Source: an uncultured Geobacteraceae bacterium
Lineage (GTDB): Bacteria > Desulfobacterota > Desulfuromonadia > Geobacterales > CAIOGM01
Assembly (NCBI GenBank): GCA_903902345.1
Contig: CAIUUR010000367.1
Span: forward strand, 1 to 33,802
Length of the DNA stretch: 33,802 bases
Direction of reading: 5' to 3'
Positions within the stretch are counted from its first letter, which is position 1. Each line of letters opens with the position of its first letter. Position numbers and translations under genes: made by a program. Shown here piece after piece: positions 2,646-33,711 of this stretch. The notes under the pieces are model-generated. The model was not told the DNA's origin and searched no databases. It was given only the letters and a program-made list of their open reading frames with translations.

Positions 2646-3593
2646 TTATTTTATGAAACTCTGATCGTCCTTCTCGTCGTAGCTGGTGAGCGGTCCCTTC
2701 TCCACCGGCTTCATGCCGGCCTCGTAGTGATAGAGCTCCTTCAATTCCTCGGCCATCTTCCGGTTGAGGAGGTTGAGGGGGATATCCATGGGGCAGACCC
2801 GTTCGCATTCGGCGCAACCGGCGCAGCGACCGGCCAGATGCATGGCCCGGACAATGTGCCATCCCATGTTCCCGGAGGGGCGGGGAGAGGTGTCCACCGC
2901 CTGGGGGCGCCCCCGGTCGCAGAGGCACTGCTCGCAGTAGCAGAAGGGGCAGACCTGGCGGCAGGCCAGACAGCGGATGCAGCGGGTGAACTGCTCCTTC
3001 CAGAATTCCCACCGCAGAGCCGGGGTCATGGCGTCCAGCTTTTCCATGAGCTCCTTTTCCTTGGGGGGAAGGTCGGGCAACGGGGGGAGTTTTCCCACGA
3101 CCAGATCGGCCTCATCGGGGATATGGACTGAGCATTCCCGGCACTTTTTGGCGATGGTGCTGTTGGTGAGCGGTTCGCCGGGCTGAATTCCGGCGCGGTG
3201 AACCCCGGCGCAGGATACGCCGATAATGACCACCTCTTCCCGCTTGAACTGGGATTCTCCCACCAATCCCGCCAGGGCGCGCAGGTCGCACCCCTTGGCC
3301 ACCACGGCCAGCTTCCCCTTGGCGCGGATCTCTTTCTTGGCCTTGGTGAGGTAGATTGAGAGGTTATTGACGCAGGCCGGGGAGAAGAGAAGCTTCTCCG
3401 CCTGGGCCGGATCGGTGATGATCACCGGCACGGCGCTCCCTTTCCGGCGCCCGGCCTGATACCCCACCACGGCGTCCACGATCTTCTCCGTGAGAAGCCG
3501 TTTCGCCTCGCTCCGGATCTCGGCCGTGGCGACGTCGTAGCCGCTAATGTCGATGGTGACGGCTTGTTCTGCTTTTTCCGTACTATTATTCAT
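2646..3593 (-). CDS. flxC: FlxC-like iron-sulfur subunit
   Basis: A 315-residue protein with two C-terminal cysteine clusters, CIRCLACRQVCPFCYC (followed by more Cys in EQCLC) and CAGCAECERVCPMD, consistent with two 4Fe-4S clusters. The N-terminal half has several isolated Cys residues in short conserved-looking blocks (SPACVNN, AKGCDLRAL, GVSCAGV). In the known FlxABCD-HdrABC arrangement this subunit lies between FlxD and FlxB and relays electrons. The start at 3593 (MNNSTEK) is chosen over 3632, because the longer version begins in the CACGAAG repeat; AGGGT lies about 10 bases upstream. The stop is 5 bases before the next repeat element. Subunit identity rests on gene order plus cluster pattern. 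Confidence 0.88.
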   Translation of the reverse strand: MNNSTEKAEQAVTIDISGYDVATAEIRSEAKRLLTEKIVDAVVGYQAGRRKGSAVPVIITDPAQAEKLLFSPACVNNLSIYLTKAKKEIRAKGKLAVVAKGCDLRALAGLVGESQFKREEVVIIGVSCAGVHRAGIQPGEPLTNSTIAKKCRECSVHIPDEADLVVGKLPPLPDLPPKEKELMEKLDAMTPALRWEFWKEQFTRCIRCLACRQVCPFCYCEQCLCDRGRPQAVDTSPRPSGNMGWHIVRAMHLAGRCAGCAECERVCPMDIPLNLLNRKMAEELKELYHYEAGMKPVEKGPLTSYDEKDDQSFIK

Positions 3594-31188: not shown

Positions 31189-31974
31189 ATGGAGAATCAG
31201 CATATTGTCCCCATGGAGTTGCTGCAGCTGGTCTACGCCTACGCTCTCATTCTTCTCTCCGCAGCTCTCGCCCGTTTTCGACGGATCGGTCAGGAAAAGC
31301 AGCTCCTCTGGGCGTCCATCCGGATGGTGCTGCAACTGATCGGGGTGGGGTATCTCCTGCAGCTGGTTTTTGCCGTTCGCTCCCCCGCGCCGGTGCTCCT
31401 CATGCTGTTGGCCATGACCGGTTTTTCGCTTCAGATCGCCGGAAAGCGGAGCAGGAAACGGATGCCCCACTTTTATCGGGTGGTGGGGAGTTCCCTCGTC
31501 ATCGGCAGTGGGGGGGTTACGTTCTATTTCTGTCTGTTGGTCGTCGGCTATACCCCCTGGTTTGATCCCCGTTACCTGATTCCCTTGGCGGGGATGATCA
31601 TCGGCAACGCCATGAACGGCGCCAGTCTGGCGGCGGAACGTCTTGCCAGCGAGATGCACGACCGTCGGGAAGAGATCGAAACGGCCATCTGTCTCGGAGC
31701 CACCGCCCGTCAGGCCTCCGAACCGGCGCTCCGGACCGCCTATGGCGCATCCCTGATCCCCACCATGAACACCATGGCCGCCACCGGTATCGTGGCTCTT
31801 CCCGGCATGATGACCGGCCAGATCCTCTCCGGGACGGCGCCGGTGGTGGCGGTCCGTTACCAGATCGCCATCATCTGCGCCATCACCGCTGCGGTGGCCA
31901 TAACCTCTTTTTTGATCCTGCTTCAGGGGTATCGAACCTATTTTACCGAGGCTCATCAGCTGAAGGGGGAGTAG
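31189..31974 (+). CDS. fetB: FetB-like iron export permease (UPF0014 family)
   Basis: A 261-residue inner-membrane protein with about seven hydrophobic segments. Family features are ASIRMVLQLIGVGYLLQLVF near residues 43-62, a LIPLAGMIIGNAMNGASLA block, then LGATARQASEPALRTAYGAS and ALPGMMTGQILSGTAPVVAV. AGGAG lies a few bases before the ATG. A perfect 10-bp hairpin includes the stop codon in its loop. The metal specificity is from the family, not from residues seen here. Confidence 0.93.
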   Translation: MENQHIVPMELLQLVYAYALILLSAALARFRRIGQEKQLLWASIRMVLQLIGVGYLLQLVFAVRSPAPVLLMLLAMTGFSLQIAGKRSRKRMPHFYRVVGSSLVIGSGGVTFYFCLLVVGYTPWFDPRYLIPLAGMIIGNAMNGASLAAERLASEMHDRREEIETAICLGATARQASEPALRTAYGASLIPTMNTMAATGIVALPGMMTGQILSGTAPVVAVRYQIAIICAITAAVAITSFLILLQGYRTYFTEAHQLKGE

Positions 31975-32074: not shown

Positions 32075-32719
32075 ATGTGGAATACTCTTCGAAACATACG
32101 TGCCAAATTGCTGAATAAAAGAGCGCTTACAAAAGTAAAGAGAGACATCGAATCAATAGAAGATGTCGAGTTTTGTATAATATCCAGCAATTGTATCGGC
32201 AGTAAAATATATCAGATGCTCAATCTGACCTATAATACGCCCACCGTAGGTCTGTTTTTATATGCGCCTTGTTTCGTCAAATTTGCGTCGGATTTGGCGC
32301 TGTACTTAGGGAAAGAACTTGTTTTTTCGGAACATTCTCTTTATCCGGAAGGTGATGGCAACAGGGCGAATAACGGTAATTATCCATTGGGACGTCTTGG
32401 CGATATTGAAATCCATTTCCTGCATTACAAGGACCAAAAAACAGCCAAACAGACATGGAATTCATTGTGTTCACGTGTAGATTATGACCGTTTATTTTTC
32501 ATATTTACCGATAGAGACCTTTGCACGCCGTCATTACTAGAATCGTTTGATAACATTCCCCACAAATACAAAGTCTGCTTTACGGCTAAAAAATATGATT
32601 TCAAGTCATGTGTGCAGATCGAAAAATATTGTGGACAGGAATACATCGGTGATATTTATACCGAATATGGGAATTTTTATAAAAATTTCAGTTTTTCCAA
32701 GTGGTTGGATAAAAAATGA
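32075..32719 (+). CDS. DUF1919-like protein in an AT-rich patch
   Basis: A 214-residue protein reminiscent of DUF1919 (found in exopolysaccharide and capsule gene clusters): CIISSNCIGSKIYQMLNLTY, a VGLFLYAPCFVKFASDL block, PLGRLGDIEIHFLHYKD, then LFFIFTDRDLCTP and a C-terminal Lys/Tyr/Phe-rich end. Its codons favour A and T in the third position, unlike all genes to the left, which points to recent transfer. GAAGG lies just before the ATG. It may be a glycan-processing enzyme, but the catalytic role is unproven. Confidence 0.78.
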   Translation: MWNTLRNIRAKLLNKRALTKVKRDIESIEDVEFCIISSNCIGSKIYQMLNLTYNTPTVGLFLYAPCFVKFASDLALYLGKELVFSEHSLYPEGDGNRANNGNYPLGRLGDIEIHFLHYKDQKTAKQTWNSLCSRVDYDRLFFIFTDRDLCTPSLLESFDNIPHKYKVCFTAKKYDFKSCVQIEKYCGQEYIGDIYTEYGNFYKNFSFSKWLDKK

Positions 32720-32769: not shown

Positions 32770-32855
32770 ACCCCAACGGGTTATCATCGGTGACGGAGAT
32801 CAAAGGCGGCGAAGCAAAGAGGGCGAAGCAGATGAAACTTGCTTCGCCACTACGA
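32770..32855. repeat. Left copy of a direct repeat flanking the Rpn-like gene
   Basis: ACCCCAAC, then GTTATCATCG, and at 32821-32848 a 28-base block with a 9-bp hairpin (GGCGAAGCA/TGCTTCGCC), ending TACGA. The same features, in the same order and spacing, occur at 33625-33711, with the middle part diverged. Confidence 0.75.
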
Positions 32856-32871
32856 CACACATCTAAACCCG

Positions 32872-32902
32872 CTCTATGTTCTATGATCTATGTTCAAGGT
32901 TC
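32872..32902. repeat. Degenerate heptad array (type H)
   Basis: Period-7 units CTCTATG, TTCTATG, ATCTATG, TTCAAGG, ending in TTC: a drifted GTTC-type tandem heptad array lying between the DUF1919-like gene and the Rpn-like gene. Confidence 0.5.
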
Positions 32903-32922
32903 TTTAAACCTTTCACTGCCTT

Positions 32923-33642
32923 TCAATTATCCGCCGTTTCGTGTTCCTTCAACCATTGTTCCAACTCATCGCGGCGCGTGAATTCAAGCAAGGCATCGCC
33001 CAGTTCTTCCAGGCGCGGCTGACTCAACACATGAATGGCGTTCACCACGGGACGGGGAAGTTCTCCCAACTTGCGGTTAAGTAAACGAATAACAAGAGTC
33101 GCTTCACCCTGCCGTATCCCCTGTTGCATTCCCTGTTGCATTCCCTGTGCAATGCCTTTTTCCATCCATGATGTTACTATTTCCATAATCGTCTCCCTTG
33201 TTTTTTGCGGTGTCGATTCGAGTTCACGCTTAAAAAGTTCATTTTCCGCTTCCGTAAGGCGCAGGTAAATGTCTACAAATCCGGATATCATACGCAGCCG
33301 TGCCGGGTCAAGACGCAGAGTGGCCAGCAGCCGCAGACATTCAAGCTTTACTCTGGCGCGGTCTTCCGGCGCTATCCGCATCTTGGACATCAACGCCGCA
33401 GCAATCGGATTCCGTTTGTCCAGGAAATCTCGCCAGTTTAAACGATTAAGCTGTATTGCCCGATAGGAAAAATTCAAGACCACACGGTCAGGAAAAGTTA
33501 CAGTATGGTTCTCTTCAGCTGGCGTCAAGGGTGTTTCATATGAAAAAACGGCCACGGGATACACGGGTATATTGAATTTATCATAGAGCCGCATAAAATA
33601 GTAGTAGGTTGGGGTGAGGCACGAACCCCAACTCGTTATCAT
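32923..33642 (-). pseudogene. 5'-truncated Rpn-family/PD-(D/E)XK transposase-like gene with DUF4351-type C-terminus
   Basis: The 239-codon frame matches the middle and end of Rpn/PDDEXK transposase-like proteins: VYPVAVFSYETPLTP, IQLNRLNWRDFL, NPIAAALMSKM, then a Gln/Gly-rich linker (GMQQGMQQGIRQGE) and a DUF4351-like end (LLNRKLGELPRPVVNAI). The N-terminal nuclease core (the Asp and Glu-x-Lys residues) is missing. The first 15 or so residues (MITSWGSCLTPTYYY) are encoded by the K-type palindrome at 33604-33632, which cuts the gene. It lies between two direct repeats of about 86 bases. Probably non-functional as a nuclease. Confidence 0.8.
33604..33632. repeat. REP-like palindromic repeat (type K2)
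   Basis: GTAGGTTGGGG and CACGAACCCCAAC surround a short spacer; GTTGGGGT at 33608-33615 pairs with ACCCCAAC at 33625-33632. It is the second copy of the motif at 8465-8500 and marks the break point in the Rpn-like gene. Confidence 0.75.
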
Positions 33643-33711
33643 CGATGTTCAACAATCACGCAGAGCACAGTAAAAAGGGCGAAGCAGATGAAACTTGCTT
33701 CGCCCCTACGA
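33625..33711. repeat. Right copy of the direct repeat flanking the Rpn-like gene
   Basis: ACCCCAAC, GTTATCATCG and the 28-base hairpin block at 33677-33704 (identical to 32821-32848), ending TACGA. The length is 87 bases against 86 on the left. It partly overlaps the K2 palindrome. Confidence 0.75.

Follow-up and report, generated by a model that had tools for sequence, protein, structure and literature searches.

A 5′-truncated rpn gene between mosaics of REP-type hairpins, with a possible leftover antitoxin frame

Near the end of a 33,802-nucleotide contig of an uncultured Geobacteraceae bacterium (this whole stretch is called the window here), an rpn gene truncated at its 5′ end lies between two mosaics of REP hairpins. 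We consider it probable that a REP together with the loss of the upstream DNA removed the toxin part of this gene, and that what was left includes a possible antitoxin of 87 residues. The truncation of this rpn gene at a REP, within a REP-rich stretch, is real and mostly ordinary, and the one idea that its sequence suggests is that of the leftover antitoxin. The features are collected in Table 1.

Table 1. Features of the truncated rpn locus and its flanks
Feature	Position in the window	Strand	Basis or remark
Left flank: last 8 nt of the K palindrome and K tail GTTATCATCG	32770..32792	+	flank alignment
28-nt block, left copy, a GTAG-footed REP hairpin (GTAGTGGCGAAGCA...)	32821..32854	-	alignment, folding
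rpn remnant, matching the intact congener protein over residues ~95-331	32923..33600	-	homology to congener G002
RpnS-like frame, 87 aa: 4-residue repeats then DUF4351, with its own internal ATG at 33186	32923..33186	-	
GMQQ-type 4-residue repeats	33109..33144	-	12 residues (three repeats) fewer than congener
Internal Shine-Dalgarno sequence (AAGGGAG), 6 nt upstream of ATG 33186	33193..33199	-	
K palindrome, a GTAG REP, at the cut point of the gene	33604..33632	+	folding, genome copies
K tail, common to the left flank and contig C509	33633..33647	+	alignment
28-nt block, right copy, a GTAG REP hairpin	33677..33710	-	alignment, folding, genome copies

Results

The rpn gene ends at a palindrome

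The minus-strand frame at 32923-33642 matched DUF4351 at 67.9 bits, and an intact version of 331 residues was found in a congener genome (G002), whose protein passes the Pfam cut-off for Transposase_31/YhgA-like (23.3 versus 21 bits, residues 8-104); the first-pass annotation was thus right in calling the gene Rpn-like. The window copy lacks the first ~94 residues and with them most of the YhgA-like nuclease domain. Since the N-terminal nuclease domain PF04754 is absent here and present in the intact congener, the window gene is a remnant rather than a complete Rpn. The first base homologous to the intact gene is 33600 and K starts at 33604, which bears out the claim that the gene is cut by this palindrome, itself a dispersed repeat. 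With its start at 33642, the large ORF extends beyond K and would include residues encoded by K; no Shine-Dalgarno sequence was seen before this start on inspection of the sequence. The intact G002 gene sits on another contig, at a different place from the window rpn, and congener homology to the DNA upstream of the window locus ends near 31967, short of rpn.

When the intact congener gene was used as a DNA query, the missing 5′ part was not found elsewhere in the assembly. This result bears on the explanation that the K junction is an artefact joining two unrelated places of a fragmented metagenome assembly. The assembly does consist of 568 contigs, K is repeated and could hence allow a false join, and a tandem repeat at the contig end recurs at the start of two other contigs. 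However, the junction is internal to the contig, with about 200 bases between it and the contig end, and the missing rpn part was found on no other contig; we regard an artefact as unlikely.

Several further observations concern the surroundings and the other rpn sequences of this genome. A DUF1919 gene (32075-32719, 165.8 bits) lies just where the congener homology ends; its G+C content is 37% compared with 59% for the window, and it was probably acquired. A second rpn 3′ fragment, small and broken, is found on contig C478 (463-576), next to a pair of other GTAG hairpins and abutting a deaminase-like gene, which we take to be of the tadA type. Contig C490 carries a full-length Rpn of another type (342-aa frame, PF04754 at 122.8 bits), near which direct repeats with GACCCCACGCAGGGGTGGACTGCTTTTAAC are spaced roughly 70-75 bases apart (3100-3289). 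A PADLOC match (C3a178, putative invertase) covers part of the protein only.

The flanks share ordered blocks but are not a uniform repeat

The gene had been described as bracketed by 86-bp direct repeats carrying the same ordered blocks. The left (32770-32855) and right (33625-33711) flanks do hold two blocks each in that order, and the blocks are real, with 23 nt conserved at 87% and 43 nt at 93%, but about 20 unlike bases lie in between and only 67 of 87 columns are identical in a global alignment, so the repeat is not uniform. The local score of flank against flank was 77, compared with a maximum of 29 among 1000 dinucleotide shuffles, and each flank scored at most 28 against the rest of the window. 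The left flank holds the last 8 nt of K only (ACCCCAAC), and the full palindrome is therefore on the right side alone. The hairpin of the 28-nt block was confirmed by folding z values of -5.3 and -5.5 for the two copies, and K with its surroundings gave -2.6. Beyond the right flank, a 23-bp tandem repeat (CCCTTCGACAAGCTCAGGGACCA) runs from 33712 to the contig end at 33802; it also opens contigs C509 and C327 and is likely an assembly break.

K and the 28-nt block are dispersed GTAG-type hairpins

K consists of GTAG followed by GTTGGGGT...ACCCCAAC, and the 28-nt block, on the minus strand, of GTAG followed by GGGCGAAGCA...TGCTTCGCCC. In the part of the GTAG REP literature covered here (PMC3733652), a GTAG end on a small palindrome is the definition of the superfamily, and inverted pairs are described as head-head dimers. 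Both the 5′ GTAG with an imperfect hairpin of 20-40 bp and the dispersed copies, often as inverted dimers, were found for our elements, the latter at low copy numbers. At up to 3 mismatches in its own genome, K has 11 copies there, 11 in G002 and 1 in G003, and it has none in the congener G001 or in 15 genomes from other genera of the order; controls with the reversed pattern gave 0 matches. The 28-nt block has 5 copies in its own genome. An inverted partner follows K closely in 3 of the 11 own copies and in 7 of the 10 congener copies viewed. The related sites L015 and L121 resemble each other in K and in the first part of the spacer, but the partner is retained in L121 only. A 57-nt stretch of K with its tail recurs on contig C509, where a block-like hairpin of the opposite orientation comes next, and a translated search found no rpn match at this locus. 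Given that both elements are dispersed, each flank is a mosaic of elements from two families of GTAG-type REP hairpins rather than the edge of an rpn unit.

For K, no RAYT gene with the same hairpins on its flanks was found: no K core lay beside any of 15 Y1_Tnp loci (4 in its own genome and 11 in G001-G003), which counts against our preferred explanation. REPtrons can be missing in some species, according to the sections of the REP literature covered here. One block-like hairpin was located near a Y1_Tnp gene in G001 (L132). Other hairpin families were seen beside such genes: at least 19 copies of one GTAG hairpin stand ~71 bp apart next to a Y1_Tnp gene in G002 (contig C54, 1039-2330), Y1_Tnp genes lie amid several GTAG hairpins of their own families in a REPtron-like manner on G002 contig C87 (L139) and G001 contig C90 (L140), and the short Y1_Tnp gene of the window's own genome (L027) has a hairpin of the L139 type.

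The repeats are mostly found without rpn

The first-pass annotation had proposed a mobile unit or an rpn-driven duplication, in which flank, rpn and flank move or are duplicated as one piece. The ordered blocks on both sides of the gene and the different place of the congener rpn would agree with such a unit. However, the genome-wide search that it had suggested returned the 5 block and 11 K copies with rpn, by translated searches, at only 2 and 1 of them, all within this window, which leaves 3 block and 10 K loci without the gene. The 10 K loci inspected in congeners carry no rpn, homology to K or the block is absent from the intact rpn locus of G002, and the left K is incomplete. Moreover, the surroundings of 67 rpn homologues show no enrichment of GTAG/GTGG hairpins (4 in 118 kb close by versus 24 in 344 kb farther away), and this low density argues against a general tie between rpn and REPs. 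Because the repeats lack rpn at most loci and the intact congener rpn lacks the repeats, a mobile rpn unit is not supported, and we rejected it as very improbable. The annotation had also named the observation that would speak against it, repeats abundant everywhere with no link to rpn; the link is indeed lacking, which brings the proposal close to refutation, but the copies are moderate in number and not abundant everywhere.

The remnant keeps an RpnS-like frame with an internal start

RpnS has been described as a product of an internal start that comprises the C-terminal portion of Rpn and blocks the toxic full-length protein; its 4-residue repeats begin 8-20 residues after the start and vary in number, which can set specificity, and it can also be a separate gene annotated DUF4351 (Zhong et al. 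2023, PMC10327210, in the part covered here). The window remnant has this arrangement, with DUF4351 after 4-residue repeats and an internal Shine-Dalgarno sequence and start, and the first G of the GIAQ-GMQQ run comes 10 residues after the ATG at 33186. Among 67 homologues, an SD-like box was found at 43 of 57 ATGs in the repeat zone (4-24 codons before the repeats) and at 24 of 499 elsewhere, where the 15 homologues without a located repeat run were counted as elsewhere only. In a non-redundant set cut at 60% identity (43 representatives including the window, 37 with a repeat zone), the box was present at 27/43 zone ATGs versus 10/309 elsewhere (Fisher 3e-21), and 27 of the 37 DUF4351-type Rpn genes with a located repeat zone had at least one SD-bearing zone ATG. 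Among relatives of the gene, this signal is strongly conserved. At Glu codons 2-4 positions before the ATG, GAG was used in 23/32 cases compared with 288/771 in the rest (p 1.4e-4), indicating that the internal-start signal lies in the nucleotides and not in the residues alone. The Rpn of C490 likewise has AGGAG 8 nt before an internal ATG.

An internal promoter was considered and rejected: the scan gave no promoter-like site on the minus strand, and its sole match, a weak one against 0.7 expected from shuffles, fell on the plus strand. The lack of a minus-strand match counts against our preferred explanation. The structure predicted for the RpnS-like protein is all-helical with a long first helix (mean pLDDT 78). 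Foldseek gave no match at E 0.001 or better, with RpnA-S 7TH0 not among the matches listed, and there was no Rpn chain among the matches listed in PDB sequence searches; both results likewise count against our preferred explanation. Ten of the 67 loci, chosen mainly for short frames, were checked for an upstream rpn piece (a match located upstream of the frame and starting before residue 150 of the query), and the four not at a contig edge (L060, L069, L093 and L094) had none; since the search query itself lacks the N-terminus, we make no claim of asymmetry for other 5′-truncated genes that keep the RpnS part.

Low dN/dS fits either constraint or recent truncation

The dN/dS of the remnant against the intact gene was 0.146 (bootstrap 0.092-0.231). 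The idea that the antitoxin part is under tighter constraint than the middle part was rejected, with values of 0.14 and 0.15, respectively, and given no difference between the parts, present function is not separable from recent truncation. With five cyanobacterial outgroups, the amino-acid changes of the middle part were assigned to the window branch (6) and the G002 branch (6), with 8 placed on neither, and those of the RpnS part likewise (4 and 3, with 9 on neither). The window branch thus shows no excess of change (10 versus 9). Accordingly, the remnant would either have been truncated recently or still be constrained.

That the remnant is simply a dead pseudogene, decaying, with a frame that is open only because it is recent and with no RpnS made, is an explanation we find slightly favoured. 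Most of the catalytic part is gone, the second rpn fragment of this genome is broken up, and a low dN/dS would be inherited from before a recent truncation and is also expected from it. Against this, the frame is open throughout, the Shine-Dalgarno sequence and ATG are intact, and the window branch has no excess of changes. The weights that we give to this explanation and to a truncation that left a possible antitoxin overlap, since the truncation is common to both and the sole difference is whether RpnS is still produced.

Discussion

We propose that a K-type REP came to lie inside the rpn gene and that either a deletion or recombination with other REP-rich DNA may have removed the upstream part; the dispersal of the REPs would be due to RAYT-type transposases, as the literature has it. 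Such a truncation would take the catalytic part of the toxin and leave the antitoxin frame with its ribosome-binding site, since Rpn genes hold RpnS at the C-terminal end and read it from an internal start. It is possible, rather than probable, that the remnant still makes a solitary RpnS-like protein of 87 residues. More tentatively, and somewhat unlikely in our view, the REP hairpin might have disarmed a gene-within-gene toxin-antitoxin whose antitoxin was kept as a working solitary gene, which could neutralise resident or incoming Rpn toxins.

If this is true, a small dispersed hairpin can split an overlapping toxin-antitoxin gene so that the antitoxin part alone survives; otherwise, the locus represents ordinary genome wear. 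The internal start found in 27 of 37 Rpn genes supports the gene-within-gene model of 2023 in cyanobacteria and in further groups, beyond the species named in the covered part of that paper. In the titles and abstracts of the open-licence REP and Rpn literature, searched with limited terms, we found no description of a REP-truncated rpn gene.

Compared with the GTAG REPs as described in the covered part of PMC3733652, a paper whose text makes no mention of Geobacter, Pelobacter or Desulfuromonas, K and the 28-nt block are alike in the GTAG foot on an imperfect hairpin, the dispersed copies, the inverted dimers with spacers, the hybrid dimers of two families and the occasional copies inside genes. 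They differ in their low copy number (11 and 5) and in that no matching RAYT was found for K. Compared with RpnL/RpnS in the corresponding part of Zhong et al. (PMC10327210), the window gene is similar in its C-terminal DUF4351 after 4-residue repeats, in the variation of the repeat number among relatives and, judged by its sequence, in the internal ribosome site and start. However, the separate RpnS genes described there are second copies downstream of an rpn gene, whereas the window gene has lost its L part at a REP hairpin.
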